Positions 4,373-62,361 of a stretch of 64,000 nt of DNA are shown piece by piece; positions within the stretch are counted from its first letter, which is position 1; each line of letters opens with the position of its first letter. The position numbers and the translations under genes were made by a program. The notes beneath the pieces are model-generated. The model was not told the DNA's origin and searched no databases. It saw only the letters and a program-made list of their open reading frames with translations. This DNA comes from Thermoplasmata archaeon (lineage in GTDB: Archaea > Thermoplasmatota > Thermoplasmata > Methanomassiliicoccales > Methanomethylophilaceae), in contig SUTA01000011.1 of NCBI GenBank assembly GCA_015063135.1, positions 1-64,000 on the forward strand. Direction: 5' to 3'.

Positions 4373-4399
4373 CGTGAATCCATGCGAATCCCAGATATC

Positions 4400-5737
4400 A
4401 TGGAATCGACAGACGCAGGCGATGTTTCAGGAACCACGGTCCAATGTCCGGCGGGAACCTTCAAAGGCCTCAGAGAAGGCGGGGCCGTCCAGTTCCTTGG
4501 GATCAGGTACGCGACCTCGGAGAGGTTCGGCGCTCCGGTCCCGTACAGGTACCCGGAGGGGGTCCACGAGATGGCCACCCCTTGCCCCTTAGCCATCCAG
4601 GAATCGTCGAGACTGGGCATGCAGATGTCCGGCGTGGATGTCGACGCGATACCTCAGGAGGAGAGCTGCCAGTACCTCTCGGTCACGGTCCCGGAGGGGT
4701 CCGCGGGGAAGCTGCCAGTCATGATATGGATCCACGGCGGGTCCTTCGAGAGCCTGGGGTGCGACCTGATGTCCTTCGACCGTGTGCCCCTGGCTACGGA
4801 ATGCGGCGTGATCGTCGTCGGAATAGGATACCGCCTGGGCGTCCTCGGCTTCCTGAGGGACAGGGAGGGGAAACTATGCAACAACGGCATCCTGGACATC
4901 ATAGAGGCCGTCAGGTGGGTCAAGGAGAACATATCCGCGTTCGGTGGCGATGCCGACAACATCACGCTCTTCGGGGAGTCGGCGGGAGGCGAGGCCATCA
5001 GGTGCGTCATGCTGGCCGAAGGCACCGAGGACCTGTACAGGAGGGCGATCATCCAGAGCGCCCCCCTAACCGTCATGACGGGCCGCGGGCCCATGGAGCA
5101 GAAGATGCTGGAGGAGCTGAACCGCATGCCCATCGATGCGAGCATCGACGAGGTGAAGAGGGTCCAGGCCAGCATAGCGTCCCATGTCACCGAGAAGGGG
5201 CCCCCGAAGTACATGAAATTCGGTCCCCGCTACGGCGTCTACCCGCTCCCGGACGAGAGCGCGATACCCGACAGGATCAGGAGCATCGCCAAGGACCATG
5301 ACCTCATCATAGGGTCCACCGAGAGGGAGGTCGCCGTGTTCATAAGCCTCAGGAAGGCCATCGTGGCCATGGACAGGTTCGTCCTGACCAGATGGCTCAT
5401 CGAGAGGGTTATCAGGAAGAAGTCCCTCAGCATGTTCACGGAGCCCTGCGAGGGCTTCGCGAGGAAGTACGCGGAGCTCGGAGGGAAGGTGTACCTATAC
5501 AGGTTTTTCTGGATGAAGGACTACGATTACATCGGTGCCTGCCATACGTCGGATGTGCAGCTCCTGTTCGGGTCCAAGGGCCTCCAGGGCATGGACATCT
5601 CCATGGGCAAGACGGAGGCCGAGACGCTCGAGGAGGGCAGGCCAATGAGGAGGATGTGGGCGGAGTTCGCGAGGTCCGGAGAGGTCCCGGAGACGGAGCT
5701 CGAGGGCATCCTGAGGATCGGAAGGGTCAAGCTCCGA
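4400..5737 (+). CDS. Type-B carboxylesterase family protein
   Basis: The alpha/beta hydrolase has the family landmarks: GLREGGAVQFLGIRYA, the oxyanion-hole segment WIHGGSFESLG, FGGDADNITLFGESAGGE with the nucleophile Ser in GESAG, and a C-terminal His region around IGACHTSDVQLLFG. It probably cleaves carboxylic esters in the cytoplasm; no signal peptide is seen. About 445 residues is slightly short for the family. The frame could also be opened at ATG 4382, but the second codon there is CGA. Seven codons before the TGA at 5756-5758 there is another in-frame CGA (5735-5737). Both fit CGA being a stop, and the coordinates follow that reading; the conventional reading is 4382-5758. Confidence 0.85.
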
Positions 5738-5814
5738 TACACGGTCCCGAACGTCTGACAGCAACTTATAGAAAACGAAGATCCAACGCCGCCGGTTCTC
5801 GGCGGTGGTGTGAA

Positions 5815-5842
5815 GGGGGTCGGCGGAGAACCGCCGACCTCC
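5815..5842 (-). terminator. Hairpin after the phasin-like gene
   Basis: GGTCGGCGG (5818-5826), loop AGAA, CCGCCGACC (5831-5839), extended by a few G-C and G-T pairs. It lies about 20 nt beyond the stop of the minus-strand gene and also after the plus-strand esterase, so it may serve both. Confidence 0.55.
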
Positions 5843-5863
5843 CTAGTTTAATGTTTAGTACCT

Positions 5864-6502
5864 TCAGAAGGAGGGGGTCTCGTCCTTGGGCTCCTCGGCC
5901 TTCTCCTTAGCGGGGGCAGCCTTCTTCTTGGCGGGAGCCTTCTTCTTGGCAGGGGCGTCGGCGGCCTTGGGGGCGGCCTTCTTCTTCTTGCCCTCGCCGT
6001 TCCTGACCTCGGCGGCCTTGTCGACGACGGTGCTCGTGACATCGCGACCCTGCTCCTGGCTCTTGATGGCGAAGTCGGCGACGGAGTCGGCCTGCTCGAT
6101 GATGTGCTTCTTGGACATCTCCTGGAACTTCTTGACCTCCTTCATGACCTCCTTGGGGGTGAAGGGGGCGGCGGGCGCTCCGGGCACGGCGGGCATCTCC
6201 TCGGGGAGGGATGCGACGAAACTGTCCTGGATCTTCATGAAGTCGTTCATGAACTGCTCCATCTGGGCCTTCGAGGATTTGATGGCGGATTTCTGCAGGT
6301 CAATCAGCTGTCCCAGGAAGGACATGACGTTGGCGTCGATCTCGTCCATGAACTTCTTGAGGTCCTTGTCGACTTTGTCGGCCTCGGGCATCTTGAAGTC
6401 CTCGAATTTGGGCATGCCAGGCAGCTGGGGGAGCTGGGGCATCTGTGCTGCGTTGAACATCGGCGGGAAGCCGGCACACTGTTTCTTTTCATCTGCGGGC
6501 AT
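5864..6502 (-). CDS. Phasin-like helical protein with Lys/Ala/Pro tail
   Basis: The 212-residue protein has three parts. Residues 1-40 are rich in Met, Pro and Phe (FNAAQMPQLPQLPGMPKF). Residues 40-160 form long amphipathic helices (MDEIDANVMSFLGQLIDLQK, MEQFMNDFMKIQDSF) resembling phasins or PhaE-type subunits of polyhydroxyalkanoate synthase. The last 50 residues are a disordered basic tail with repeated PAKKKAPAKKKAAPAK, like the tails of PhaF or histone H1. The same Met/Pro segment and basic tail occur on the two ligases transcribed divergently from 6941, so the three products probably share a location or partner. No phaC synthase is in the window, so a PHA role is only an analogy. Ends TGA. 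Confidence 0.6.
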   Translation of the reverse strand: MPADEKKQCAGFPPMFNAAQMPQLPQLPGMPKFEDFKMPEADKVDKDLKKFMDEIDANVMSFLGQLIDLQKSAIKSSKAQMEQFMNDFMKIQDSFVASLPEEMPAVPGAPAAPFTPKEVMKEVKKFQEMSKKHIIEQADSVADFAIKSQEQGRDVTSTVVDKAAEVRNGEGKKKKAAPKAADAPAKKKAPAKKKAAPAKEKAEEPKDETPSF

Positions 6503-6940
6503 TTGAATCGCTCCTTTGATTGATGCCGTCTTGTATCACTTGAAGGGTATATTAAAATTTCATATTCGTAGGTGAGTCGAGCATTCAAAGAATCATTCTA
6601 AGAGGTGCGATGCGCCATGCCGTACATGCCGTCACGGGCATCCTCGCCCTATGGTCGGAGGTGCGGGCCGGGATCGGATCCCCTGCGGTCATGTGCGAGG
6701 GGGCGACCTCCGCCATCAGCGGCACATGGGCATCGCGTCTGCGCCTATCTCTCTGCAGGGCATCCGCGGGTCCGTCACTCTCGCCGGGTCAGCCGGTCCA
6801 TCAGTGCGGGAGGGATTCGTCGGACAGCAGTCTTTGACACACATGTTCTCAGGAACATGCATCGGCGAGAGGAGTGCCTGTCGCTCTTCGTTAAATAAGC
6901 GGATTCGCATCCGCGTGCAATCAAAGAGGGGCTTCTTCTC
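6503..6940. promoter_or_regulatory. Divergent intergenic region, no gene seen
   Basis: This 438-nt gap separates the phasin-like gene (minus) from the first ligase (plus). Near 6548-6560 the minus strand reads TTTTAATATACC, a good TATA box about 50 nt before the phasin start. On the plus strand CGTTAAATAAGC at 6887-6898 can serve the ligase, whose ATG is preceded by a GAGGGG ribosome site. Short frames exist between 6600 and 6900 in both strands, but they show no homology and no start signals, so I do not call a gene. Confidence 0.5.
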
Positions 6941-9493
6941 ATGAGCACCGGCGATAAACAGAAGAGATTCATGCAGCGTTTGAAGAGCGGCGAGATTGCA
7001 GACCAGGCGTGTTGGTCGTTCATCAAGGAGATGAACTCCGTCTCCGATGAGCGCCTCGATAGCGTGGCCATAACGGACAGCTACAGGCAGTACACCTACA
7101 GGCAGATGTTCTGGTATTGGGAGAGGTACGCGGAGGCGTTCTCCGGCATCGGCCTAACCGGCGAGAACCATTCCCGCGTGGGGCTCATAAGCGTGCCCCT
7201 GCCCGAGACGATCTTCACGCTGTATGCCCTCAACATGACCGGTGCGAGCATATCGGTGATCTACCATCTCGACCTGTACGACGAGAAGCAGATCTACAGC
7301 ATGATCGAGAGGGAGAAGATCACCGACCTCGTGATCTCGGAGATCTTCGCATTCCCCAACCTGATGAAGCGCCTTCACAGGGACAGGGGGAGGCTGGGCA
7401 TCAAGAAGATCATCGTCATCCCCAGCCCCATGGGAGGGGACTTCGCCATCCCCGCGTTCGACCTGGCGAGGAGGCTGAACGCGGAGATGTACCGCGAGCT
7501 CCCGGGAAGCATCCTCATGGAGGATCTCCTGGAGAAGTATGAGGCATATCCAATATCGTACGCCAAGGAGGTGCAGCCGATCATCCTTCACACCACCGGG
7601 ACCGTCAGCGGCATGCACAAGCCGGTGCCCCTGACCAATAAGGCCATGAACTCCTTCGTGGTGAGCGTCCTGGAAGCGAAGGAGAGCTTCGAGGATTTCA
7701 AGAACATCCCGGAGCACATCGTCACGTACATCCCCTATTACATCAACTGGGCCTACTGCATGGTCGACGCGCTGCACACCGCGCTGAGCCTGGGCGCGGA
7801 GGTCGTGAGCCTGCCCATGGCCTCCATGAACCCCCGCTACTCGGAGGCCATCGAGCGCTACGGAGTCAACGTGCTCATGACCAGCATGGCCTTCTTCGAC
7901 ACATGGCACAAGACGAAGCCCGATATCGATCTCTCCAAGCTGAAGATCCTGATCATGGGCGGTACCTACGTCTCGCCCGAGTACAAGAAGGAGTTCAACG
8001 ACTACCTGAGATCGTGCGGCTCCACGGCCCGCGTCATCAACGGATACGGGCTCTCCGAGCTGGGCGGTGCATGCACCATCTGCCCATCGACGAGGGACGA
8101 CGACGCCATCGGATACCTGCTGCCCGGGATCAAGGCGAAGATCTTCGTAGAGGATGAGAACCGCTACTACGAAGTCTCCGACGGTCCGCGCACAGGGCTC
8201 CTCCTGCTGGGCGGTCCGACCATGAGCAGCGGCGTTCTCGACGGCACGGAGTTCTTCGAGCTCGAGGAGGTCGACGGCGAGAAGTACTTCAACTCCCACG
8301 ACCTGGTGAAGGTGGCCGAGGACGGATGCCTCACCTGCATCGGGAGGTCCAACCATTACTTCGTCAACAACGCCGGTGTGCGCTTCGACGCAGGGCTGGT
8401 GGAGAACGCGGTCACGAAGCAGCCGGGCGTGAGGTTCTGCGGCCTGACTCCGGAGTTCCACAAGATCCTGCACGACAACGTCCCCATCCTCTACGTCGAG
8501 ATGAGGGATCAGGGAGCCGACGAGCTCGGCACCCTGCGCAACGCCCTGATACAGGTGTTCATCAAGGACGAGCTCATCTCCGATACCAACCTCCCCAGCC
8601 AGTGCGTGATAGTGAAGAGCATGCCCCTGAACACCAACGGGAAGGTCGACGCCAAGAAGCTCAAGTCCGGAACGGTGACCGGCGCCCGCTACTCCATCAG
8701 GCCCGTGCACATTGACGGGAAGCTCGTCGACATCCTGCTCGTCCCGGCGGCGGAGGGGGAGTTCGCCACCATGGGCGCGGGAGTCCCGGAGGAGCTCGAG
8801 GGAGACCCCTACAACATCGTGTCCGAGCTCTTCTCCGCGATCCCGGAGATCAAGGATCAGGGGCTCATGAGGGTGCTCAAGATCCCGGGCCTCAGGGAGC
8901 TCATGCTCAAGCTCACGGACTTCGACATCGACAACATACCGGCGAGCATGTGGAACCTGGCGCCGAAGCTGTTCAACATGACGTACAAGAACGACTTGAT
9001 GCCGCTGATCAAGCAGTACAGCCAGCTCGAGGGGATCCTCCCGATGCTCAACGGGAACATGCCCCCAATGCCGCCCATGATGCCCTTCATGCCGATGCCC
9101 AATCTCGGCAGCGCGGGGATGCCCGGGATGCAGGGATTCGATGCTAACGTCGGAAACTGGATGGAGCAGATCAACACTGTCATCGTGAATTTCTGGAAGC
9201 AGCTATTCGAGATGCAGAGGTTCTTCTTCGGAGCGTCCATGGGGCAGTTCCCCGCGATGCCCGGCTTCCCTGCGTTCCCCTTCTTCCCCAACGCGACGGT
9301 GCAGGCCGAACCTAGGAAGGAGGAGGCTACCGCGGAGAAGGCCGCCGATGCGGAGCCCGCCAAGCCCGCAGCGAAGAAGGCCCCCGCGAAGAAGCGGACC
9401 GCCGCAGCGAAGAAGGCTCCTGCGGAGAAGGTCTCCAAGGCCAAGGCGGAGCCTATCGAAGATGCGGCGGACAGCGGACCCGAGACGGTGCGA
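6941..9493 (+). CDS. AMP-forming acyl/aryl ligase with phasin-like Lys-rich tail (copy 1)
   Basis: Residues 1-640 form an adenylate-forming (ANL superfamily) enzyme. The A3-like motif is HTTGTVSGMHKPV near residue 217, A5 is NGYGLSE near 367, A7/A8 is HDLVKVAEDGCLTCIGRS, and A10 carries the catalytic Lys in TNGKVDAKK near 565. It should activate a carboxylic acid as an AMP ester; the substrate is unknown. Residues 640-700 are a helical linker, 705-785 a Met/Pro/Phe-rich segment (MPPMMPFMPMPNLG), and 788-847 a basic Ala/Lys/Pro tail. The ATG follows a GAGGGG site. It ends at CGA 9491-9493, exactly where the paralogue downstream has TGA; the conventional frame would continue to TAG 9632-9634. 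Confidence 0.85.
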
Positions 9494-12387: not shown

Positions 12388-12615
12388 CTCTCATACTGCT
12401 GTGCGTCATGCGACGGTCAGCGGGTTTTCTCAATCTGCAAAGCTCTGAAAACTATTGGAAAGCCCCCGATGAGGGACGAGAACCCTCCGTCCCGATGGCC
12501 TTCAACTCCTACAAAGATGTATGGATTCCGCCAACCTATATAACGAGGTGGGCAGATAGATATCCAATTCAGGTACCGGCCGGACATCCGGCTCTTGCCT
12601 GTTTCGAGTGATACC

Positions 12616-15210
12616 ATGGATAAAAAGACGATGATTATCGTCATCGTGGCCGCAGCGGCAGTCATCGCCGCGGGTTGCGCCTGCTTCTTCCTGCTGAAGG
12701 GCAACGGAGGGGGCGAACCCGCCGTGCCCGAGTACCAGGGCGTGTGGGCGGTAGAGGCGATCCACGAAGCGTACTATGACGGAGACGAGGCTGTGTACGA
12801 GGAGATCCCCGTGGGAACCGCTCCCGATATGACGATTACCAAGGAAGACGGTTTCTACAAGCTGGTCCGCGGGGACAGGACGTACTACGCGGTCCTGAAG
12901 ATGAGGGGCCTGATCTCGGTCAGCTCCGGGGACACCCACATCGCGGCCGGCTATGCTGACGGCGACAGGCTCTTCATGAGCCTCGTGAGCACGGAAACCC
13001 TCCACGCCCAGATAATCGATTTCAAGCGCGTCCTCCTGGACGGCGAGGCCAAAGTTTCCAAGGCGAGCAAGCCCTCTTGGGATCCCGGGGTCGGACAGAC
13101 CTACGAAGCATACCAGAAGACCCGCTACGTCGGCGAGGTTCCCATCGACATCGCCGATTCCTACGTCCTGACCGTCGACAAGTCAGAGAACAACTTGATC
13201 ATGTACCGCCAGACCACGACGTACTCCGAGCCCGGCAAGGAGCCGCGCGTCTTCGGGAGTGTAGCGGTCCCGTTCGGCAAGGAGAACTGGTTGGCCGTCA
13301 GCCAGCTCGATGGCAGCCTCCTCATCGACCACATCATGGTCCAGAAGGGCAACCTCTACCTCTTCTCCGCCGCCGATTACGATGGCGAGTTCTGCATCTG
13401 GGATGTCCGCTACGGCGACAAGTCGAAGAACATCGTCAGCTACTACGACATGGAGGGAGACATCAACTACGGCACCGAGAAGGTCCTGTACCTGGACGAG
13501 GACGGCAAGGCGACCTCCGACACCCGCAAGATCATGCTGTATGGCGACAGGTCGTTCGACGACCACCGGCTCGTCAACCTCTACGCCGACGAGAACGACG
13601 GCCCCGATACATATGGCATCGCCATCTACGAATACGACGGGGGCTACCTCAGCTTCGGCCAGAGCGCCATGAGCTACGGCCATGAGCAATACTATGTGCT
13701 GACCATCGCCAGCTACGACGGCGATACCATCGACATCAGCGGCATCGGGTTCAGGGACGGCGGCGCAATGCTGTTCTCCCAAGAGTACGCCCGCGACTCC
13801 CAGTACCCCTATGTCCAGGACATCGAAGTCGATTCGGATTACTACAAGTACTTCGCAATCTACAACGCAGACAACCTCATGGAGTGGTCCCCGATGGGCT
13901 GGGGCGCTGCGACCTACAAGCACACCAAGATAGTCAGCCACAACATCACATGGGACACCAGCGCCATGGTCATCGACCACGACAAGAACACCGTCCAGCT
14001 AACCGGCAACGATAAGGCGTACCTTTACGACGTCACCCTCAAGTTCGATAAGGTCGACGGCATCGATGCGAAGGTCTCCACGGATGCGCTGGAGATATCC
14101 CTCGAGGGCATCAAGGACGGCTTCACCATCGGCATCGACTTCAAGCCCGTGGACCGCCTGGTGGGCGACTGGGTGCTCCTGGAGACCCTGACGGCCACTT
14201 GGGCTGACGGGAAGCCCCTGGTCGGGACCTCCTACGACACCGGCACCCTCACCATCAGCAAGAACGATGAGTGGTACGCCATCAACAACGGCGAGGTCGA
14301 GGTCCTCGGAACAGGCGACGGCATCAAGATCGCCGCCGCCGGGCTGTTCGAGGACGCAAGGGCCGCCTATATCATCCCGAATATGCGCAGCGAGTTCATG
14401 AGGGCCGTGTACTTCGACGGTAGCGAGGCCGTCGTCAAGATCTACGCGCCCAAGGGCTACGTGGGCACATATTCGGGGCTGCAGTACGCCTGCACCCTCC
14501 CCGAGGAGGGTGACAAGCTCCCCGCCTTCAAGATCATGGAGTACAACCCCGGGCCCATCGACCATCTGGATTGCAAGAACAGGTTCACAATGGTGGAGAA
14601 GACGGAAGACGGCATCATCTTCTACACCGTGGACACCGAGGACGTGGGCAGGATCTACAGCACAGGCCTGTACATGAACGGCGATAACTTCCTCTCCCTC
14701 TGCCAGAACAACGATGGCACCTACATAGAGATGGCCACATTCGATGAGGACGTCCTGTACACAACGATGATGGCGCGCGGGGATTCCTGGGTCGTGGATT
14801 ACGGAGACATCGGGGATGCCAATTACCCGTACCACTTCTTCGAGGGAAAGACCTACGTGGGTGAGGAGTGCAGCGCTGTGTACAAGGATGGGAAGCTCAT
14901 CGAGAAGAACGAAGGGGTCGGCATCACCCTGAAGATCCTGTACCAGGACGATGAGTTCCTGACGGTCTCGACCATATCGAAGAATGACGAGCAACCCTCC
15001 ATCTGGGGCACGAAGATTGGGACGTTAAGCCGTCTGAATAGCTATTCCCTGATGAACGAGGCCAACCAGACCTACAAGGGCGTCTATTACAAGGGTACGT
15101 ACTTCGGGTCCTTCACCGATGACCTGGGCGAGTTGGAGATCATCGGGAATCTGGTGGGAGAAGACGGATCCACCGTCGTGATCAAGCAGCTGTACGCGCT
15201 CGAGCGCCGA
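12616..15210 (+). CDS. Anchored extracellular protein with repeated beta-rich modules
   Basis: An N-terminal hydrophobic helix (IIVIVAAAAVIAAGCACFF) should anchor the protein so that about 835 residues face outward. The ectodomain is rich in Tyr, Asp and Gly and contains at least three similar modules that begin with a W or Y and an aromatic strand pattern: YQGVWAVEAIHEAYYDG, VGDWVLLETLTATWADG and KTYVGEECSAVYKDG. This resembles lipocalin or beta-barrel repeats, but I do not recognise a named family. The start ATG 12616 is chosen over TTG 12595. It ends at CGA 15208-15210, followed two codons later by another CGA. Without that stop the frame would fuse to the next, unrelated secreted protein. 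Function unknown. Confidence 0.75.
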
Positions 15211-15459: not shown

Positions 15460-16848
15460 ATGAAAGGAACGCACGAGAAAACGATGGCGATGGCCGCGGT
15501 ACTGGTTACCGCACTGTTAGTCATCACATGCATCCCCTTCGCCAGCGATTCCTCCGACGCCTCCGATGACGGCGCCTCCTACGGGACCGTCAAGGAGTTC
15601 TCATGGAAGGACGTCGAGGAGATATCCAAGGCGCTGTTCGACAAGACCGTCGAGGAGCTGCTGATGGAGCTGTCGGAGAACGAGTACGGCTACGAGCTGT
15701 ACCTCGCAGAGCCGCACTTCGAGGCCGAGATGGCCGCCAAGAGGGATGTGAGCACGTCCGACGGCATATACTCCATCGACGACCACATCTCCGGATACAT
15801 CGAGTTCGGGACCATCGTATCCGTCCACGGGAACCTGCCGGAGGCGGGCGACTACCAGAAGAAGGACGGGGAGGACTCCAAGGACTTCCTGGACAGGGTC
15901 CTGAAGGACCATGCGGGAGAGACGCGCGACGTGTCCCTGCAGCTCCTGTTCTGCGTCTATGCGGACGTGGGCGTGAGGACGACCATCGACATCGCCACCG
16001 GCGATCTCATCGCCACCGATGTCCTCGGGAAGCTTTTCGTAGTGGATTACGAGGCCAGCGACATCGATTTCACCACCGAGGAGGACGAGCAGGGCGAGCT
16101 CACCGAGATATCCATCAGCTACGAGGAGAAGGAGACCACAAGCAACCTCTACGTCGCCGCCGATGTCGGCCTCAAGTACGAGGACATGAAGGTGCTGAAC
16201 GCCCAGGAGTCCTGGGGGCTCAGCCCGCTGATCACCCTGCACATCAACCACATCTACGTGTCCTCGGACATGGCCAACGGGATATGGAACATGGTCTCCA
16301 GCGCCATAGGGATGGAGGGCATGATAAAGGGCAAGCTCCCGGACCTCATCCTGAACATCATCGGTTCCGGCAGCAGGGTGCTGGACATCGTGGAGACCAT
16401 CAAGTCCCTGACCGGGACCAGCCTGAAGGACGTCGATTTCCTGGCCGACATCCAGGCGTCCAACGTAACGGACGATGATGGCAGGGAGTACGTCGACCTC
16501 AAGATACTCAACCCGTCGGGGGACATGGAGCTACATATTCCCAAGGCGGGCTACTCCGTCACGGTCGACAGCATCCTCGCCACAATCCCTTCGTACATCC
16601 TTAGCGATGATCTGAAGGCGGCCATAGGCATCGCCGCGGGCATCATCGGATGGGATACCTTCACCGCCGACGAGATGGACCCGGTGACCGAGGAGAAATT
16701 CGACGAGATACACGAGCACACGGTCACCATGATCAAGTATGATGAGGAGTACGAGCTCAACATCCCCATCGCGTACGTCATTCTCGCAGCGATCGGCCTT
16801 ATAGGGTGCGCCGCCGCCGTATTCATGTCCAGGAGGGGATCCGCATGA
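15460..16848 (+). CDS. Secreted protein with C-terminal membrane anchor, unknown function
   Basis: The 462-residue protein has a signal peptide (MAMAAVLVTALLVITCIPFA, then a likely cleavage before SDSSDASDD) and a C-terminal helix (YVILAAIGLIGCAAAVFM) followed by SRRGSA. The mature part is acidic with no motif I recognise. The ATG follows AGAGGT, and TATA-like elements lie near 15298-15325. The TGA at 16846-16848 overlaps the ATG of the MFS gene, so the two are translationally coupled. The anchor topology recurs in several proteins of this region. Confidence 0.7.
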   Translation: MKGTHEKTMAMAAVLVTALLVITCIPFASDSSDASDDGASYGTVKEFSWKDVEEISKALFDKTVEELLMELSENEYGYELYLAEPHFEAEMAAKRDVSTSDGIYSIDDHISGYIEFGTIVSVHGNLPEAGDYQKKDGEDSKDFLDRVLKDHAGETRDVSLQLLFCVYADVGVRTTIDIATGDLIATDVLGKLFVVDYEASDIDFTTEEDEQGELTEISISYEEKETTSNLYVAADVGLKYEDMKVLNAQESWGLSPLITLHINHIYVSSDMANGIWNMVSSAIGMEGMIKGKLPDLILNIIGSGSRVLDIVETIKSLTGTSLKDVDFLADIQASNVTDDDGREYVDLKILNPSGDMELHIPKAGYSVTVDSILATIPSYILSDDLKAAIGIAAGIIGWDTFTADEMDPVTEEKFDEIHEHTVTMIKYDEEYELNIPIAYVILAAIGLIGCAAAVFMSRRGSA

Positions 16849-18320
16849 ACTTCTCGGATCCCGACAAGCAGCGCGCGATAGCCATGTGGGGCCTCGCCCT
16901 GTGCCTTACCGCTGCTGCCGCTGGATGGATGTTCATGAGGTTCGGGATGGCATGGTCCGTCGCCGACCTCCCCGAGTCATCGAACATCGACTACATCGTC
17001 CCCGCCTACATCATCGCGGAGGTCACCATGATCCCGATGGGCGGCAAGCTCATCGACATCTACGGCACCAGGCGCATGCTGGCCATCGCGCCGGTGATCT
17101 TCATCGCAGCATCCATGGCCTGCATCCTGTCCGTGTCGGTGGAGATGCTGGTCGTCTTCAGGTTCGTGCAGGGCATCGGCGCGGGACTCACCCTCGCCAT
17201 CGCTTACACCGCCGTGGGCCGCTACTACCCCATCACCAAGAGGGGCAGGGTCAGCGAGCTCATGACAGCCGCATTCGCGGTCGGATCCCTGTTCGGGTCC
17301 GCCACCGGCTACTTCTTCACGGAGAACTTCAACTGGAGGTTCGGTTTCCTGGCCTTCGCACTCATGATGGCCGTGGGATTCGTCATCGCGTGGAGGTTCC
17401 TGCCGGAGGACGAGGGCTCCAAGAGGAAGACGGATGTCGCGAGCCTCGCGATCGCCACCATCGTCTTCGGTGTGGCCACCGCCTACACCCAGCTCGTCAA
17501 CGTCGACTTCGACCTGCTGAGCATCCCCTCTGCGGTCATCGCGGCCCTCATCATCGTCGGAGTGGTCGGGCTCATCATGCACTCCAAGCGCTCCGAGAAC
17601 CCGACGATCCCGGTCGGGATATCGGTGTTCGAGAAGAAGGTCCTGATCCTGATGTTCGTGTTCAGCCTGTGCGGCCTGGGTCTGATCCAGTACTTCTTCA
17701 AGCTGTACCTCACGTACTACGAGTTCGACATCTACACGGCGAGCATGATGTTCTGGCTCCTGATAGCCGGAGCGGCCGGACCGTCCATGATCGGCAGCCG
17801 CAAGGTCTTCAAGACAGGGGTCAGGCCGTGGGTGGTCATCGGATCCATCATCGTGACGGTGTCGCTGGTGATCACCCATTTCATCGCGAGCCAGGGCACC
17901 CTGTACTTCGGGATCTCCCTGTTCCTGTTCGGATTCGGCCTCGGATTCATCGTGAACCAGCTGATCTGCGCCCTGCAGGCCATATCGCCCAGGGAGGACA
18001 TGGGCCAGCACACAGGCAACCTGATGGCCGTCCGTATGGTGGGAATCCTGGTCGGTAACGCGATCGTCGGAGCCTACATCAGGGACGTCGTCCAGAGCAA
18101 CTACGTCTCGGTGCCCATAGACCTGTCCTCCGTCCAGAACCTGCTCAAGGAGATCGGGGGCAAGTTCGCTAACGACATTTCTGAAGCTGCCAGCTCGCTG
18201 AACGACGGCTTTATGGTCTCCATTCTCTTTATGTCCATCATAACGGCGCTCCTAGCCGTCCTGTCCTACACGCTGAAGGCGGACGACAAGGAGGCGGTCG
18301 AGGGCAGCGAAGAGGAGCGA
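16845..18320 (+). CDS. MFS transporter
   Basis: This roughly 491-residue membrane protein has about 14 hydrophobic segments. It carries the MFS signature between helices 2 and 3, GGKLIDIYGTRRMLAIAPV, and a second GRYYPITKRGRVSELMTA. This layout is typical of the DHA2-type drug/proton antiporters. The start codon overlaps the stop of the upstream secreted protein (ATGA). The protein ends EAVEGSEEE at CGA 18318-18320. In the standard code it would run on through a GC-rich hairpin to 18404 with unrelated residues. Substrate unknown. Confidence 0.85.
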
Positions 18321-18349: not shown

Positions 18350-18400
18350 ACTCGGGCCCCATCCCCAAACCCCTTCCGCTGCCGGAAAGGAGGAAGAGGG

Positions 18401-20233
18401 ATGAACAAGAACGCAATGATGGCCGTGGCCGCCGTGGCAATCGTCGCCATAGCGGCGGCATTCGTTTTGACGTCCGGTGATAAGGGAGAGTCCTATGATA
18501 CCGAGACGGTCACCGTCAACGCATACAACATGTCATACATCGTAACCGACCAGAACGACCCGCGCTACCTGGAGCCGGTCAAGGACGTCTCCGAATACCT
18601 GATGGGGGAGTACACGTTCCTGGTCAAGAAGGGCCAGGGAGAGGTCCTCTACACCACTTTGGACGATTTCGCAAGGCTCTTCGATGACGACCTGAACGCC
18701 GGGTACTGCAGCACCGTCGACAGGGACGGCAAGAAGTTCACCTGGACGTTCACGAACGACAAGGGCGGGGAGGCGTACAGGTACGTCTTCGACGCCGGCA
18801 AGATGACCATGTCGGAGACCGGCGACGGCGATGTGCTGGTCACCGACGACTACCGCTCGTCGGTCATAGACCAGCTGAAGCTGGATGTGGTGACGGTCGT
18901 CGACACCGGCCTCCCGAACACGTACTCCTTCGCAGGGTGCGGCCTCGATCCCATAGTGGAGGGAGGGAAGACGTACTTCCCCCTCGGCTTCCTGGATTCG
19001 AGCACCCAGCTGGAGCTGTCCAGGAGCTTCATCTACTCCGAGGAGGACTGCATGCTGTTCAAGTACAGCGACAGCACGCAGATGGACGCGCCGTTCATCC
19101 GCGGTTCCGATGACGAGGCGACCATCAACAAGATCGTCACCGCATCCTACGCCCGCTACAGCGACCCGGACGGAACCATCTATCCCCCCGTCTACATGCT
19201 GGAGTTCACCAGGGACCTGTTCTACTTCCTGATGGACAACTTCTACGACCTCAATGAGGTCACCGGCTACAGGTGCATGAGCGACTTCTTCAAGAACAAC
19301 GCCTACAGCGACGGGCTGGTATCCCAGGACCCCGCCGTGCGCGGGGAGGCCTACACCGTGCTGATCGGCCTCCTGAACGACCTGCATTCCGGCTACGGCG
19401 GCTCGGTGGTCTTCGGGGAGAAGCCGGCGTACAATCCCGGCAACGAGGTCCAGAACCTGCTCAATGACCGCTCCACCCTGTACCTCCAGCTGATGCAGCA
19501 GAGGGCCGCTGCGGTGAAGGCCTACGGGGCGGATTCCCCGACCGACGTCAGGTACAGCTCCGACGGGACGACCGCCTACTTCTCATTCGACGAGTTCTCC
19601 GCGGTGACCCACTACGATGACCAGCCCCTGACCCCCGAGCAGAGGATGAAGGACACCTACTACCTCTTCGTCGACAAGCTCAACGAGATCAAGGCCCACG
19701 GTGGCGTGGAGAGGGTCGTCATAGATGACTCCTGCAACGGCGGCGGGATAGTGGTCACGATGGGCAAGCTCCTGGCGCTGATGTCCAAGGATAACCGCGC
19801 AGTCTCCTACGAGAGGAACGGGATAACCGGCAGCATCCGCGAGTACATCTACAGGGTGGATTCCAACGGCGACGGATTGTATGACGAGAGGGATTGCTTC
19901 GGCAACGATTTCAGGTTCTACATCCACACCAGCCTGTACTCGTACTCCAGCGGCAACGCATTCCCCTTCCTGGCCAAGGCGTACGGCATAGCCGAGACCA
20001 TCGGCACGAAGTCCGGCGGCGGGGAGTGCACCGCGGTGTTCAACATCCTCCCGTTCGGGCACCAGATCAACCATTCGTCCTTCAAGCACCTCGGGTACTA
20101 CGACGAGGCCACGCAGACCTATCACGGGGACGAGCACGGGCAGTCGGCCGACATCTTCCTCGGTGTGTACCAGTTCGATGTCGACAAGGTCTCCATCGTC
20201 CTGAAGGACCACGAGGCTCAGGAATCCAGCCGA
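18401..20233 (+). CDS. Membrane-anchored S41-like (tail-specific) protease
   Basis: After an N-terminal helix (MMAVAAVAIVAIAAAFVL) the 610-residue protein is extracellular. The C-terminal third resembles S41 / C-terminal processing peptidases: TAYFSFDEFSAVTHYDD, VERVVIDDSCNGGG (the family D.R.N.GG strand), then SLYSYSSGNAFPFLAKAYG holding the likely nucleophile Ser, and IGTKSGGGECT. No PDZ domain is evident. It likely cleaves peptides at the cell surface. A strong ribosome site (AAAGGAGG) precedes ATG 18401. It ends at CGA 20231-20233, before a hairpin shared with the convergent EamA gene. The conventional frame to 20503 would run antisense through EamA. Confidence 0.7.
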
Positions 20234-22765: not shown

Positions 22766-23956
22766 ATGAACGGCGGTTTCTTCCCAGACCTCGCAACCTG
22801 CAGTCCTGTGGAGATTCTCCTGCTCGTCATGCTGATCTCCTACTTCCCCTACGCGGTCTACCAGATCTACCTCATGGATTACTGCCTGTACATGACCGAC
22901 AAGAAGATCAAGGACAGGAAGAAGCGCCTGGAGGTCCCGAACAATGTAATTGTGGCCATCACCACCAACGGCATGGCCACCGACGTGGTGGAGAAGATCA
23001 TAGCGAAGGTCAGGGGCTACGGCCTTGCATCCGAGATCTTCGTCGTCAAGGAGGAGAGGGACCCGTTCCAGTACAGCTGCAGGATGATCGCCGTCCCCTC
23101 CGATTACGTCTGCCCCGGGGGCTCCCGCTGCAAGATGCGCGCCATGCACTACGGCATCCAGGCGATGCACGACATGGGCTACGGGAAGGAGACCTACATC
23201 TGCCATCTGGACGACGACAGCATCGTCGACAGGCCCTACCTGGAGTACGTGAAGTACTATCTGGACGCCGAGGGCGCCCAGGGGTGCATCCGCCTCCGTG
23301 CATGGGGGAGGCACCTGTTCTCGTCGCTGTCCGACATCATCAGGATATCCAACTGCGAGGCCTGGTGCAAGAGGTGCAACTCCAGGAACCATCCCCAGTT
23401 CGTCCACGGAGAGGGTCTGGTGGTCCGCGCGGACGTCGAGTACGAGATAGGCTGGGACTACGGCACCTACGGCGCGGAGGACCTGATCATGGGCCTAAGC
23501 GTCTCCAAGAGGTACAGGTTCGACGACATCCCGGACGGCCACATCTACATAGCCCCGCCGACCTCCGTGACGGATTACTTCAAGCAGCGCCGCAGGTGGT
23601 TCTGGTCCCTGATGAACAACCGCGGCGTGGTCAGGAGGCTGTCCTTCAAGACCTGGCTCTTCTACATGTACATGTACATCAACGGGTTCCTGGGCCTGAT
23701 CTCGCTCCTCATCATCCCCATCGTTATGCTGTTCGCGGGGGGCTTAAGCGACTTCACCCACATGGTGGCGGTCCTGAACATCATATTCTTCTTCGCCTAC
23801 TACCAGTTCGGCGCCACGTACATGCACTCGCTGTCCATTTCGGCGGCCATGTTCGTGCTGACGATACCCGTGGCGTTCTACGACGGCCTAACCTCGGTGT
23901 ACGCGCTGGTGAGGCCGCCGGACTTCACGACCTTCGAGACCATAAAGAAGGTGCGA
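22766..23956 (+). CDS. Membrane GT2-family glycosyltransferase
   Basis: An N-terminal helix (EILLLVMLISYFPYAVYQIY) leads into a GT-A domain with the UDP-sugar/metal motif HLDDDS near residue 147, the acceptor-site YGAEDLIMG and the processive-type KQRRRWFWS motif near residue 274. Three C-terminal helices follow. This resembles egghead/Bre-3-like beta-mannosyltransferases and could build cell-surface glycolipids. It ends FTTFETIKKV at CGA 23954-23956. That CGA forms one arm of a hairpin whose other arm contains the stop of the convergent gene. Confidence 0.85.
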
Positions 23957-41505: not shown

Positions 41506-42842
41506 AGATCGGATTGGAGATCCATGTCCAGCTGCCGACCAAGAGCAAGATGTTCTGCTCCTGCCCCACCACAGACGCCCCCGCGCCCAACACACACGTG
41601 TGCCCCACCTGCCTGGGGATGCCCGGGTCCAGGCCGGTCCTGAACAGGAAGGTCCTGGAGTACGGCATCATGCTGGCGAAGATGCTGGGGTGCAAGGTCG
41701 CGGATACTGCCTGGTTCAGCAGGAAGACCTACTTCTACCCGGACATGTCCAAGAGCGTCCAGATCACCCAGTACGACAACCCCATCGGGGAGGGCGGGGT
41801 GTACATGCTCAACGGCAAGAAGCCCATCAGGATCACCAGGATCCATGTGGAGGAGGACCCCGGCAAGACCAAGAGGGTCGGGGACCTGTCCTCGCTCGTC
41901 GACTACAACAGGTCCGGCATCCCGCTGGCGGAGATCGTCACCGAGCCCGACCTGTCCACCCCCGCCGAGGCGAGGGAGTTCCTCGGTCAGCTCATCGCGG
42001 ACATCAGGCACGTCATCGACCTGCCCGGCGACGGCGAGAGGAGCATCCGCTGCGACTGCAACATCTCCGTCGGCAAGGAGAGGTGCGAGGTCAAGAACGT
42101 AACCGGCCTGAAGAACGTCGAGAGGGCGCTGACTTTCGAGTACATCAGGCAGAGCAAGATCCTCAAGGCCGGCGGGAAGATAGAGAGGGAGACCAGACGT
42201 TTCGACGAGGAGCGCGGCGTCACCATCTCCGTCAGGAAGAAGGAGTTCGAGGCCGATTACGGCTACATCGACGAGCCCGACCTGGGGATATACCACATCA
42301 AGGCCATGGCCGATGCGATCAAGATAAGGGAGAGCCCCCAGCAGATGGCCGCCAGGATGGTCTCCGAGTACGGGATAGACCAGAAGATGGCCAAGCAGCT
42401 CATCGCCACGTCCGTCAGCGTCGCGGAGCTGTTCGAGAGGGTCGCCAGGGAGACCGACGTCCAGAACGCGGTCAAGTGGGTGGCCGGCCCGGTCAGCGCC
42501 CACTGGAAGTCCCTGCAGGAGGGCGACGATGCGTCCGATGATATCGTTGCAGCCGTCAGGAGGTTCGCCGCCGGAGAGATCACCGACGCCGAGTGCGGGA
42601 TGCAGATCAAGTGCCGCCTGACCGGCGAGGACGCCGAGGCAGCCGCCGCCGGGTCCGCGGACCTGGAGGCCCTGATCGAGCAGGTCATCGCCGAGAACCC
42701 GGGCGTCGTCGCGGATTACGCCAAGAACGACAAGGCCATCAACAAGGTCATCGGCTCGGTCATGAGGCAGTCCGGTGGGAAGTACTCCTCTGCGGAAGTC
42801 GTCGGGGCCGCCAAGAGGATCCTGGAATCCAAGATGCAGCGA
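41502..42842 (+). CDS. gatB: Asp/Glu-tRNA amidotransferase subunit B
   Basis: The protein begins MKIGLEIHVQLPTKSKMFCS and carries the zinc site CSCP...CPTCLG, YFYPDMSKSVQITQYDNPIG and the kinase-like core with GIPLAEIVTEPDLSTP. The C-terminal YqeY-like helical domain ends AAKRILESKMQ at CGA 42840-42842, giving 446 residues. The standard frame would continue 53 residues of Arg/Pro-rich nonsense into the 3' end of aspS. GatB phosphorylates the misacylated Asp-tRNA and transfers ammonia to it. Confidence 0.93.
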
Positions 42843-55440: not shown

Positions 55441-55899
55441 TCGCTCGCCGAGGATCGGGGGCACGAACTCGAACGGGTCCTTCTCGACCCCCATGATGAC
55501 GGACGTGCTGGTCCTGCGGACGCCGTCCAGGGAGGCGATCCGCTTAACGACGGCCGAGAACTCCTCCCTGTCCTCGCATGCGATCCATGCCATGCAATCG
55601 CTGTCGCCGGTGACTTCGAACACCGACACCACCTGGGGGATGCCGGCGATCTCCTTGATCGCATACGCATCGGCGGAGACGCTGACGATGCCCATGTAGT
55701 CGAACCCCAGCCTTGCGTAGTCGATGCTGGCCCTGTAACCGTTGATGACCCCCTTGGACTCCAGCGCCTTCACTCTCTGGATTAGGGTGGTGGGGTGGAC
55801 TCCGAGCTGCTTCGCTATCTGCCTGTAGGATCCCTGGCTGGACCTGCAGAGGAGCTCGATTATACGTTTGTCCAGTTCATCGTAGTCTGTTAGGGCCAT
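55441..55899 (-). CDS. Lrp/AsnC family transcriptional regulator
   Basis: The protein opens with the AsnC-type helix-turn-helix: DYDELDKRIIELLCRSSQGS, then RQIAKQLGVHPTTLIQRVKA and LESKGVINGYRASIDYARLG. The RAM ligand-binding domain follows (IPQVVSVFEVTGDSDCMAWI). It probably senses an amino acid and controls transport or metabolism. ATG 55899. At 152 residues it ends FEFVPPILGE at CGA 55443-55441. The standard code adds 40 residues through the terminator array of the giant gene. Confidence 0.88.
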
Positions 55900-55976: not shown

Positions 55977-57977
55977 TCGGGCCCAGACGGACACGCGGTC
56001 CTCCGGGGACAGGTACATGTTGTCGCCCTTCTGGATGCCGTAGGCGTCGAAGAAGGCCTGCATCTGCTGGACCTCCATGTTCACCCTGTACATCCCCGGC
56101 GGGTGCACGCCGTTCGCCACATGCGCGTAGTAGGTTTCCCTGTCCTGCGGGAAGAACTCCAGGACGACCAGCGAGGAGAAGAACTTCTTTACGTCGCCGT
56201 TCCCAACCATGGTGTGTGCGATCGCGGAGCCGCCCATGTCGGCCATGACCTCCCCGACCATGCTCTTGGTCAGGCTGTACCCGTTGCCGACGTAGAACCC
56301 GGTGATGTAGTCGGTGAGCCTGTCCACCTTCTTGTCGAAGATGGCCTTCTCCTCCTCCGTGAACAGCCAGCCGGGGTTCTTGACGCCCCTCTCGTCGTAG
56401 TCCGCACCGGTGTTGTCGAAGCCGTGGGTGATCTCGTGGCATATGGCGGCGCCGACCGTCCCGAGCATGTACTCCAACTCGGTGGTGCTGTGCTCCTTCA
56501 TGAACTCCCGGACGTAGCCGGTCATGATGTTGATGGAATTGTCCTCTATTCCGTAGTACATGTTGAATGTTTGCGGGTGCATGGAGATGTTCCACTGGTC
56601 CCGGAGGTCTCCGGATGCTTGGGCGATGTCCATGGCCCTGGTCGCCTGCCTGAGGGCCACCAGCATGCCGTAGTAGCTGTCGGCCTTCACGGACGAGTAG
56701 TCGTATGCGGCCATCTGCTCCTTGGTGGGACCGAGGCAGCGGACCACCATGCCGTCGATCTTCTTGGATATCTCGTCGGCGGTGTCCTCGCTTATCCAAT
56801 CGACGTTGCCGTAGTAGGCCTTGGCGGCCTCCAGGCATTGGTCTATGAAACCCTCGAAGAAGGCCTGGGTCCCGGCATCCACGTATGTGCCGTAGTAGTA
56901 TTTCCCTACGAGCATGCTGGTGACATGGTCCCAGTCGTTGCTGAGGGAATCCAGCATAGAGCTCTGGATGTCGAATTCCTCGCCGAGCCATTCGGCGCGG
57001 ATCTCGTAGGTCTGCTCGTCGAGGTGCCTGCTCGCATCCATGAGGAGGTCGTACATGGCCATGCTCTTGTACAGCATCAGGTTGTCCTTGGTCAGGCTCG
57101 AGGAGATGGTCTCGAAGAAACCGGAATCGGCGGATTGGAAGCTGTCGATGCCTGCGTCGTGGTACGGCTTGAGGGCGGATGAGAATGCGAACGACTTCTC
57201 GACCTCGGTGTAGGTCATGACGGGGGTCGCCTCGCCGGTCGCCTTGGTCTGTATGAGCCTGTCGTAATCGACCGCGGCCTGAAGGTAGGAGTCGCCGTCG
57301 ATCTCTGGGAACAGCTCGAGCATGTCTCTGTAGAGAGTGAGGTTCTTCTCGATGTCGGCCTCACGGTAGTTCTCGTCGAGGCTGGGGAGGATCGGGATGC
57401 TGATGGTCACAGCGTTGCTCCCGTTGGTGTCCTCTATGTGCCTGGACAGCGAGATGATCGAGCTGTACATGCCGGCGGAGCCGCCGGTGGCGGCGTACTC
57501 CACGACCTGGTCGGTGGTGGATATGGCGTCTATCTCGTCAACGTACGCCTGGATGGCGCCGGTGCCGGCGGCGTTGCGGGCCGTCATGTTGAGGGCGTAG
57601 CTGTAGTAATCGGCCAGGACCTTCGAATCCCCCAGTTCGGGGTAGGTCTTGTCGTTCAGCATGGATATGATGTCGTAGGTTATGCGGTCCTCGGACTGCC
57701 GGTTCACGGAGTTCGCGTACAGCATTAGCAGGGCCATGCCCTCGTCCTCGATGGCGGCCGCCTTCTTGTAGACGTCGTTCATCACGTATGGGTAGTAGTT
57801 CTCTGCGGCAGTCTGCTCCTGGTACTCCGGATACACGTTGTCAAAGATGTCCACGTTGTACCATTTCTCCTCGCGCTCGTTGGATCCGAGGAGGAACACG
57901 CAGCTCGCCGCAAGTATTATGGCGACGACCGCTACGGCCGCCACCGCGTTCCTGGTGTTCATGGCGCGGCATGGCAT
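55977..57977 (-). CDS. Membrane-anchored M13 (neprilysin-like) zinc metalloprotease
   Basis: An N-terminal helix (NAVAAVAVVAIILAASCVFL) anchors a roughly 630-residue ectodomain of the M13 family. The zinc motif HEITH has its first His at residue 514, and the second metal ligand lies in GEVMADMGGSAIAH. The substrate-binding segment is VNMEVQQMQAFFDAYGIQKG. M13 enzymes trim oligopeptides outside the cell and normally end close to SPEDRV.VW; here SPEDRVSVWA is followed by CGA 55979-55977, one codon and a second CGA. The TATA box near 57999 supports ATG 57977; ATG 57962 is an alternative. Confidence 0.9.
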
Positions 57978-60303: not shown

Positions 60304-60314
60304 CCTTTATTAAG
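60304..60314 (+). promoter_or_regulatory. TATA box of the S6e operon
   Basis: The CCTTTATTAAG stretch lies about 40 nt before ATG 60349. Confidence 0.5.
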
Positions 60315-60348
60315 GATACTCGGCTAACCGACCCCCACAGGTGTTCAA

Positions 60349-60753
60349 ATGGTAGAGTTCAAAGCTATCGTTAACGATGTGAAGACCGGCAAGTCCTACA
60401 ACATTGCCGTCTCCGGCCACCACGCGAACTCTCTGATCGGTAAATCCATCGGAGAGGTCGTCGACGGTGTGTTCCTCGGCCTCCCCGACTACAAGCTGAA
60501 GATCACCGGCGGTTCCGACTCCAACGGGACCCCCATGAGGAAGGACCTCCCCGGCAACAAGAGGGTCAAGCTCCTGCTCGCCGAGAGCAAGGGATTCCAC
60601 GAGAAGTACCCCGGCCAGAGGAGGAGGGTCGCCATCCACGGCAACACGATCTCCGACAGGATCGTCCAGATCAACATGGCTGTCAGCGAGTACGGACCCA
60701 AATCCATAGAGGAGTGCCTCAACCCTTCCTCCGAGGGCGAGGCAGCTGAGTGA
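60349..60753 (+). CDS. rps6e: 30S ribosomal protein S6e
   Basis: The 134-residue protein carries the S6e core: [40 protein letters not shown] and [20 protein letters not shown]. Its TGA overlaps the ATG of the aIF2 gamma gene (TGATG), so translation is coupled. The S6e, aIF2 gamma, PIN order is common in archaea. Confidence 0.97.
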
Positions 60754-61991
60754 TGAAAGTCCCCAAGCAGCCCGAGATCAACATCGGGATGATCGGCCAC
60801 GTCGACCACGGGAAGACCACCCTCACCAAGGCCCTTTCCGGCGTTTGGACCGACCGCCATTCCGAGGAGTTGAAGAGAGGCATCTCCATCCGTCTCGGCT
60901 ACGCCGACGTCGCATTCTACAAATGCCCCGAATGTCAGGGATCCGCAGCCTACGGCACCAACAAGAAGTGCCCGAACTGCAAGTCCGAGGCCGAGTTCCT
61001 CAGGGCCGTGTCCTTCGTGGACGCCCCCGGGCACGAGACCCTCATGGCTACGATGCTCTCGGGAGCCGCCCTCATGGACGGAGCCCTGCTGCTGGTGGCT
61101 GCCAACGAGCACTGCCCCCAGCCCCAGACCAAGGAGCATCTGATGGCGCTGTCCATCATCGGCATCGACAAGATCATCATCGTCCAGAACAAGATCGACA
61201 TCGTCAGCACCGAGCGCGCCATGGAGAACTACAAGGAGATCAAGGAGTTCGTCAAGGGCACCATCGCCGAGAACGCTCCCATCATCCCCATCTCCGCCAA
61301 CCGTGGCGTCAACATCGACATCCTGATCGAGGCGATCGAGGAGCACATCGTGTCCAAGGTCAAGAGGGACACGAAGGCCACTCCGCTGATGCACGTGGCC
61401 CGCTCGTTCGACATCAACGCCCCCGGCACCAAGCCCGAGGACCTCAAGGGAGGCGTCCTCGGAGGCACCTTGATACAGGGCACCCTGTCCGTGGGCGACG
61501 ACATCGAGATCGTCCCCGGCAGGAAGACCGAGGTCGCCGGCAAGGCCGTCTACGAGAGGATCACCGCCAAGGTGACCTCCCTGGAGGCGGGCGGCAAGAG
61601 CGTCAAGAAGGTCCTGCCTGGAGGCCTCGTTGCCATCGGTACCGGCCTGGACGCGTCCATCACCAAGTCGGACGGTCTCACCGGTAGGGTCATCGGCGTC
61701 CCCGGTTCCCTGCCGGAGGTCGTGCACGACTTCAGGATGAAGACCACGCTGCTGGACCGCGTCGTCGGGTCGAGCTCCGAGCTGTCCGTCGAGGACATCA
61801 AGAGCAACGAGCCCCTGATGCTCAGCGTCGGAACGGCCACCACCGTGGGCGTCGTCAAGAGCGCCAGGAACGGCCAGGCGGAAGTATCCCTCAAGATCCC
61901 CGTGTGCATCCTGCCCGGGCAGAGGGTCGCCATCTCCAGAAGGATCTCCAACAAGTGGAGACTCATCGGTTACGGTATCGTCGACCAGTGA
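60753..61991 (+). CDS. eif2g: Translation initiation factor aIF2 subunit gamma
   Basis: The 412-residue GTPase shows G1 GHVDHGKT at residues 15-22, switch I around [11 protein letters not shown], a four-Cys zinc site (CPEC...CPNC), G3 DAPGHE and G4 NKID. Domains II and III follow. It binds Met-tRNAi and delivers it to the small subunit. ATG 60753 is taken; GTG 60750 is possible. It ends IVDQ with TGA, 4 nt before the PIN gene. Confidence 0.97.
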
Positions 61992-61995
61992 GACC

Positions 61996-62361
61996 ATGCA
62001 GACGGTGGTCCTCGACACAAACGCCTTACTCATGCCTTTTGAGATCGGGATCAACCTTGACCTCGCGCTCCAGGAGCTCCTGGGCGACGCGAGGATCGTG
62101 GTTCCCGGCCCTCTCGTCGGGGAGCTGAAGCACCTCGACCACAAGTACGCCAAGGCGGCCATCGCCCTGGCGAGGAAGTACGAGATCATCCCCACGGAGC
62201 ACACGGGGGACGACGCTGTCGTCGAGCTCGCCTACTTCACCAAGGGATACGTCCTGACCAACGATAAGGAGCTCAGGCGCAGGCTCAGGAAGGAGCGTGT
62301 CCCCATCATCCTGCTCAGGTCCGGTACGCATCTCGAGATCGACCCGTACCTAGGGGAGCGA
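61996..62361 (+). CDS. PIN-domain protein (Fcf1/Utp23-like)
   Basis: The 121-residue PIN domain has the acidic residues in VVLDTNALLMP, GELKHLDH, DDAVVELAY and LTNDKELRRRL. The archaeal homologue in this operon is thought to act in rRNA processing as an Fcf1-like nuclease. It ends LEIDPYLGE at CGA 62359-62361, directly before a T-rich stretch typical of archaeal transcription ends. The standard frame would run 18 residues through that terminator. Confidence 0.9.

Follow-up and report, generated by a model that had tools for sequence, protein, structure and literature searches.

Sense-to-stop reassignment has been described in green-algal mitochondria, where it affects UCA/UCG (PMC6821328). 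Here we report what appears to be a comparable change in an archaeon. The DNA analysed (the window) is a stretch of 64,000 nucleotides, positions 1 to 64,000 of the forward strand of contig SUTA01000011.1 in assembly GCA_015063135.1 of a Thermoplasmata archaeon (Methanomassiliicoccales; Methanomethylophilaceae). The subject is the Arg codon CGA, with which many genes of the window seem to end, together with archaeal release factor 1 (aRF1), which would read it, and tRNA-Arg(UCG). To our knowledge, no sense-to-stop change has been described in a cellular (non-organelle) genome, and none was found in the literature searched, which comprised open-licence PMC papers only. Codetta reportedly assigns amino acids to codons, and a codon that had turned from sense to stop would merely be left without a call. 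A Codetta screen did reveal sense-to-sense changes of CGA/CGG and AGG in bacteria; there, as here, CGA changes its meaning and tRNA(UCG) is involved, but the bacterial CGA becomes Trp at 0.26–0.38 guanine plus cytosine (GC), whereas here it would become a stop at ∼60% GC (PMC8629427). In the algal mitochondria, the former sense codon is absent inside genes and used at their ends, UCG has no cognate tRNA gene and the release factor carries unusual residues, all of which has a counterpart in the archaeon; however, the algal cases concern organelle genomes (13 standard genes tabulated), mtRF1a and Ser codons rather than a cellular genome, aRF1 and CGA (PMC6821328). Methanogens of the window's own order are known for another non-standard codon use, pyrrolysine at UAG, which is stop-to-sense and not sense-to-stop (PMC4153887, PMC3941956). 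The term CGA is absent from the main text of these two papers and of PMC5011839.

We read the data as a sense-to-stop reassignment of CGA by aRF1. Very probably, CGA is a true stop in the window's genus and in its sister Methanomethylophilus clade; the single aRF1 would release at CGA, and a conserved CGA inside the aRF1 gene would be autoregulatory. The first-pass annotation of the window had proposed the reassignment, with ∼23 of 47 genes ending at CGA and no CGA inside genes, and its eight named examples (gatB, PIN, Lrp, M13, Usp, AMP phosphorylase, MFS and GT2) all have an in-frame CGA where it had placed one. A home-made codon-usage gene finder, in which CGA is scored as neutral, assigned 45 terminators in the window (TGA 20, CGA 19, TAG 4, TAA 2) and overran an earlier in-frame CGA in three segments (5735-5737, 15208-15210 and 20231-20233), which brings the CGA ends to ∼22, close to the first estimate. 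Some of the 19 calls are short or overlapping and may be spurious (3288-3761, 32993-33214 and 38005-38265).

The window's genome is a draft (1.86 Mb, 40 contigs, 87% complete, ∼60% GC), and the counts for it and for its relatives rest on samples rather than on whole genomes. Its sample of 457 kb consists of 19 stretches picked for tRNA genes and aRF1, one adjoining the window and one adjoining the aRF1 stretch; these join into 20 segments on 15 contigs, in which the gene finder delimited 444 coding segments with 130,274 codons. The 410 assigned terminators are TGA (201), CGA (171), TAA (22) and TAG (16), and CGA ends are present in every one of the 20 segments (1 to 25 each). Longest open reading frames were dropped as a basis for counting, since at 60% GC antisense frames swamp the CGA counts; orthologues and codon usage were used instead. 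In gene bodies (124,243 codons) CGA is counted 34 times in frame but 1,944 and 8,059 times in the two remaining phases, a skew that is not due to chance and is in line with the claim that genes lack it. More than 30 codons into a segment, 18 in-phase CGAs are left in 111,943 codons, compared with 1,648 CGC, 171 CGG, 148 CGT, 268 AGA and 3,781 AGG. They are spread over 12 segments, of which 10 were inspected: seven show a dip of the coding score past the CGA, one has an ATG directly after it (a truB-like start), and two on contig C35 are ambiguous, one with a possible ATG 14 codons on. We read eight of the ten as gene ends, and likewise the CGAs of the remaining two segments, which lie in the window and are followed by a standard stop 7 and 90 codons later. 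An A precedes 60/201 TGA ends but only 9/171 CGA ends; in ATGA stop-start overlaps, the T also serves the start codon of the next gene. Without the A-preceded ends, CGA:TGA is 162:141, which would be near the expectation for free drift of the first stop base at ∼60% GC.

Orthologues place the gene ends independently of codon usage. For six genes near aRF1, alignments of as many as 35 relatives' proteins to the full-length frames of the window's species end one or two codons before the CGA (argS at 1000 with CGA at 1001; aRF1 at 496-497 with CGA at 498). Eight conserved genes of the same genome, with queries cut at the stop, contain no internal CGA in 2,981 codons. Across 28 genus genomes, gatB terminates no more than two codons away from this position; the stop is TGA in 24 and CGA in four, and none of the 734 internal Arg codons is CGA. 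The aRF1 gene of the window's species itself ends at CGA, whereas 16 named genus loci have TGA (15) or TAA (1) there; its terminus reads CGATG and probably overlaps the start of argS. At the compared sites other species have TGA or CGA, sister species mostly TGA. Conserved gene ends thus coincide with CGA, and CGA is out of sense use inside genes, apart from the two ambiguous segments on C35.

The same usage extends to relatives. In the larger genus samples, CGA ends 25/82 genes in genome G027, 20/80 in G021, 7/36 in G026 and 5/48 in G001; outside the genus the counts are 25/96 in G060 (COG_1), 2/82 in G061, 2/88 in G062, 1/65 in G064, 2/56 in G065 and 0/96 in G034. Single loci from other assemblies agree (RGIG6046 5/17, COG_1 6/23, RGIG6908 7/20). 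The gene finder also returns some false CGA ends where CGA should be Arg (0/96 in G034, but 3/18 in G036, 3/16 in L213, 2/22 in L214, 4/27 in L198), and small counts in relatives are therefore soft. G027 has a single internal CGA in 23,002 codons, that of aRF1, and the one core internal CGA in each of G026 and G001 is likewise in aRF1. Outside the genus the core internal CGAs number three in G061, five in G062, one in G064 (aRF1), one in G065 and four in G034. In loci L182, L198, L199 and L203, a conserved K/R position of a TruB-like protein is encoded by CGA, which is therefore Arg there; the sequences indicate that other genera still read the codon in this way. A five-gene tree that leaves out aRF1 makes the genus and the COG_1/UBA78/UBA593/SRR873597 clade sisters (support 0.94), and a single origin of the CGA stop is therefore the simplest reading. 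The window's genome groups with a low-GC clade, with support of 0.31 in one tree and 0.99 in the five-gene tree. We also considered programmed readthrough at the cmk-CGA-ATG-truB junction. Among matched loci, it is in frame only in four from the Methanomethylophilus clade and in the window's genome, and we treat it as ordinary CGA termination. Arg codon usage varies in other ways among these relatives: in L196 and G062 (UBA593) CGG is the main Arg codon (732/1,335 in core codons), unlike in the AGG-preferring sampled relatives, and in L176/G064 (SIG6) and L178/G065 (UBA328) both CGA and CGG are nearly gone, with three and five CGG in 20,252 and 14,954 core codons respectively.

The window's species has apparently given up the tRNA for CGA. 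Its genome yielded 43 tRNAs, all of them typed, with TCT, CCT, GCG and CCG as the Arg anticodons; tRNA-Arg(UCG) is not among them in this 87% complete assembly. Each of the other seven four-codon boxes has a UNN tRNA. Because of this incompleteness, and because some tRNAs (e.g. Tyr) were not seen, we examined the syntenic site. In G030 and G025 tRNA-Arg(UCG) sits between a HypE-like and an APRT-like gene, and in G007 and G014 it comes after the same HypE-like gene. Stretch L081 of the window's genome contains the HypE-like gene (∼14,325-15,360) and the APRT-like gene (16,245-16,763), with tRNA-Thr upstream as in G014. No tRNA lies between the two genes, and in an unfiltered model search of the site only tRNA-Thr scored above 10 bits. 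The empty, contiguous site indicates that tRNA-Arg(UCG) has been lost and not missed, as the first-pass annotation had suspected. Loss is not required for CGA ends, since 27/31 genus genomes have this tRNA (17 detected by pattern, nine of them typed by ARAGORN; two by model and typed; eight typed on checking). It was not found in G000, G013, G016 and G017, the patterns being negative in the last three (87, 88 and 66% complete). An apparent lack in nine sister genomes of the low-GC clade was rejected once further model matches had been typed, which revealed a diverged copy in eight; G013 remains without one, part of its model matches having been typed.

Where the genus retains it, tRNA-Arg(UCG) looks odd. 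Transfer RNAs almost always carry U at position 33. All 19 typed genus copies have an anticodon-stem mismatch or C33, compared with 1/11 in other genera: 11 have a 31/39 mismatch, and eight have C instead of U at 33, seven of these also with a 27/43 mismatch. The 11 copies from other genera include one mismatch (G034, 27/43) and no C33. In the low-GC clade (L367-L369, L372-L376), C33 is found in 8/8 typed copies and the 27/43 mismatch in seven. We read this pattern as a tRNA that is under little pressure to decode well, or that is tuned to be weak. tRNAs with 4-bp anticodon stems are known, and the type unpaired at the top of the stem has been tested for tRNA-Trp (PMC13092985). The seven genus copies unpaired at the stem top resemble these, but in 11 others the lowest pair of the stem is missing, an arrangement that the paper set aside (PMC13092985). 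Eight have C33 in addition or instead.

A single aRF1 gene was found in the window's genome; two further matches are pieces of one weaker relative, which we read as aPelota. The first-pass annotation had suggested an altered aRF1. The NIKS and YxCxxxF motifs are intact, but in an alignment to human eRF1 the factor's Met55 falls on Arg68. Met occupies this position in all 20 aRF1s examined from the CGA-stop clade and in 36/41 other family members, compared with Arg in 23, Asn in seven, Met in two and Lys in one of 33 other Thermoplasmata. In the other genes of the loci, CGA accounts for 105/1,440 Arg codons where the residue is Arg (outside the family) and for 127/12,599 where it is Met (within the family); basal family loci give 15/413 (Arg) and 25/535 (Lys), and 1/360 was counted with Leu. 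Two loci outside the family, L217 and L220 ('Dive96'), have Met at this position, CGA at 3/272 Arg codons in their other genes and no CGA in their aRF1. The CGA-stop-clade factors have in addition Gln (18/20) at position 43, Ala at 46 and Thr at 53 of the window species' aRF1. In simulations that included CGA, an Arg68Ala change in eRF1 is predicted to lower the penalty for C at the first position from ∼6 to 1–2 kcal/mol (PMC5681627). We propose that Met in place of the Arg that braces the NIKS loop loosens the first-base check, and that the single aRF1 could then accept C and release at CGA. CGA would have been purged from genes, and TGA-to-CGA changes at gene ends would be nearly neutral. 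We rejected the idea that such a factor also reads CAG at the expense of Gln, since CAG is not depleted (20.9 vs 17.5 per 1,000 codons). CAA is depleted (1.5 vs 4.6 per 1,000 codons), but GC and kinship confound the comparison.

In the genus, CGA is conserved inside the aRF1 gene. A conserved Arg (alignment codon 68, ∼ residue 78) is encoded by CGA in all 26 other genus species that cover the codon, 24 of them full-length, and by CGC in the window's species. An in-frame stop would thus be conserved across species inside the release-factor gene, and we infer that it is a self-regulating stop. Among 15 named genus loci CGA makes up 15/329 Arg codons of aRF1 but 3/4,310 of the other genes; the P-values of this and the other locus comparisons of aRF1 take no account of kinship. 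The sole CGA in 20,252 core codons of SIG6 is that of aRF1, and in the COG_1 clade an aRF1 CGA lies at codon index 14 in 4/4. tRNA-Arg(UCG) accompanies the aRF1 CGA in nearly all genus species, and the window's species, the only one shown to be without this CGA, is also the only one for which loss of the tRNA is shown. The known parallel is bacterial RF2, whose gene, prfB, has an early in-frame stop read by the factor itself; loss of that element accompanies heavy use of the stops specific to RF2 (PMC12421855). Similarly, the window's species, without the aRF1 CGA, is the heaviest user of CGA stops among the genomes measured. prfB needs a frameshift past UGA (PMC12421855), whereas in aRF1 the CGA would have to be read through in frame as Arg. 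The reading frame does not change across the aRF1 CGA, and no +1 frameshift is seen. RF2 and aRF1 are unrelated proteins. A feedback stop implies that the release factor must get past the stop that it reads. With ample aRF1, ribosomes would release at this CGA after ∼77 residues; with scarce aRF1, the weak tRNA-Arg(UCG) would read it as Arg and full-length factor would be made. In the window's species the tRNA would have been lost along with the change to CGC. As a separate observation, a winged-helix-like, fast-evolving regulator gene of L117 (G007), L119 (G009) and L114 (G003) carries an in-frame CGA whose position is roughly shared by the three; it may be either an early stop or another regulatory CGA.

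Several explanations would do without aRF1 reading CGA as a stop. C-to-U editing, raised in the first-pass annotation, would make UGA of CGA in the mRNA and leave the code unchanged; it would equally give conserved ends at CGA and no internal CGA, and half of the ends are TGA. The editor would, however, need to know the reading frame, as these genes keep ∼10,000 CGA triplets outside the coding phase. No base beside the terminal CGA is fixed, the only bias being a deficit of A and T at −1, and editing leaves both the loss of tRNA-Arg(UCG) and the conserved CGA of aRF1 unexplained. We consider it highly improbable. CGA could instead be an unread, hungry codon, at which ribosomes stall for want of a cognate tRNA and are released by rescue factors. 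This agrees with the absence of the tRNA from the heaviest user of CGA ends, but G027, G021 and G060 possess tRNA-Arg(UCG) and also end many genes at CGA, and stalling on ∼40% of genes would presumably be costly; such a mechanism is very unlikely. It is scarcely credible that CGA is merely a very rare Arg codon and that the proteins carry longer, poorly conserved tails. Most of the family does make little use of CGA, even in genera that clearly read it as Arg, but a rare codon would not accumulate at gene ends, the coding signal falls past the CGA in most inspected cases and the proteins of relatives end just before it. The draft state of the genome leaves room for sequencing or assembly errors that turn TGA into CGA, a chance we regard as practically negligible: CGA ends occur throughout the sampled segments and in other assemblies, from further genus members and from the sister clade, and errors would neither delete a tRNA nor spare the other two phases.

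A different alternative accepts CGA as a stop and concerns only the CGA inside aRF1, which might, being rare, slow or tune translation. Other family genera still read CGA as Arg, yet 41 of their loci show the codon enriched in aRF1 too (62/886 Arg codons vs 138/9,198 in other genes), and a second rare codon, CGT, is invariant in the gene. No enrichment is seen in the 13 loci numbered L212 and higher, which lie outside the family or, in three cases, at its base (14/331 vs 135/2,517). Against tuning, a triplet inside aRF1 must face the factor wherever CGA ends 25–30% of genes. In all 24 full-length genus genes the base before the CGA is T, although the codons concerned, GCT (15) and TCT (9), are minor ones in these genomes; the +4 base is C in 24/24, whereas C follows 13% of terminal CGAs, but it is largely forced by the Leu that comes next. 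On balance we give tuning a real but minor chance. Other observations weigh against our own reading. Four further Arg columns of aRF1 have an invariant codon (three AGG and the CGT, which is found in 24/24 at alignment column 175, past the GGQ motif) while the rest vary, and codon invariance alone therefore does not prove regulation. tRNA-Arg(UCG) is retained in most of these species and should compete with aRF1 at CGA, and that of Methanomethylophilus looks normal. Beside the aRF1 codon, G021 has a core internal CGA near a gene end, and G014 and G007 each have one other; G060 has seven internal CGAs in 31,111 codons, of which two were judged to be gene junctions and five are left. G014 (2/91) and G007 (1/84) barely use the CGA stop at 58–60% GC. 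Nearly the whole family has Met at the Arg68 position, while heavy use of CGA stops is confined to one clade, and the link of Met with CGA rarity is confounded by kinship.

With these points in mind, we lean towards the following history of the CGA stop. Family-wide loss of the NIKS-bracing Arg would have made aRF1 leaky at CGA, which became rare; the CGA in aRF1 would then have served as a feedback sensor, with tRNA-Arg(UCG) kept for little else. One clade would have completed a fourth stop codon, and the window's branch would have dropped sensor and tRNA together. What is new here beyond the CGA stop is the conserved CGA within aRF1 and the tRNA-Arg(UCG) with an odd anticodon arm, both lost in the window's species. 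If correct, no earlier sense-to-stop reassignment would be on record for a cellular genome; its intermediate stages would survive in living species, and the feedback loop of the release factor would have arisen convergently with that of bacterial RF2. The living series (CGA sense and rare; almost unused; a minor stop; a major stop with the tRNA lost) would make stepwise models of code change directly testable, and the clade would be a natural test of first-base checking at stop codons by eRF1-type factors. It includes gut and rumen methanogens, and deposited proteins from it may therefore carry false C-terminal tails.

The genes of the window that end at CGA are collected in Table 1. In the AMP phosphorylase, 29 residues lie between the end of the TIGR03327 profile and the CGA. 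The coding score of the gene at 12613..15210 falls at its CGA, and the gap before the next gene holds five further in-frame CGAs.

Table 1. Genes of the window read as ending at CGA.
Gene or product	Coordinates	Strand	CGA	Evidence and remarks
gatB	41502..42842	+	42840-42842	TIGR00133 GatB matched to 480/481 at residue 449 of 454
AMP phosphorylase	34517..36097	-	34517-34519	TIGR03327 (slightly below cut-off) to 493/500 at residue 497/526
M13 peptidase	55977..57965	-	55977-55979	PF01431 Peptidase_M13 to last position 205/205, residue 662 of 666
Lrp/AsnC regulator	55441..55887	-	55441-55443	In-frame check, gene finder
PIN-domain protein	61990..62361	+	62359-62361	PF18477 to 114/116; gene finder
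Universal stress protein, two Usp stretches	33658..34455	+	34453-34455	Gene finder
MFS transporter	16827..18320	+	18318-18320	Gene finder
GT2 glycosyltransferase	22808..23956	+	23954-23956	Coding signal falls past CGA; gene finder
Second MFS transporter	36774..37985	-	36774-36776	Gene finder
Acyl-CoA synthetase-like protein	6920..9493	+	9491-9493	Profile matches below cut-off; gene finder
Carboxylesterase-like protein	4457..5737	+	5735-5737	TGA 7 codons on, taken by finder; CGA end is our reading
Gene	12613..15210	+	15208-15210	Second gene follows in same frame, ending TGA 16848
Gene	18398..20233	+	20231-20233	TAG 90 codons on, taken by finder; CGA end is our reading
Gene	24349..25581	+		CGA end; in-frame check, gene finder
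Gene	25583..26347	-		CGA end; in-frame check, gene finder
Gene	28414..30195	-		CGA end; in-frame check, gene finder
Gene	30289..32094	+		CGA end; in-frame check, gene finder
Gene	32132..32986	+		CGA end; in-frame check, gene finder
Gene	36278..36772	+		CGA end; in-frame check, gene finder

The window also contains a giant surface-protein frame (45084-55340, + strand), which had been taken for one gene of roughly 3,400 codons. It is a single frame only if the one TAG that splits it, at 50178-50180, is read through. The two halves show no blastp match; a hydrophobic, signal-like stretch opens the upstream half, and the downstream half closes with a hydrophobic anchor. These features, together with a PylS match above the cut-off in the window's genome, suggest that the TAG is probably read as pyrrolysine.

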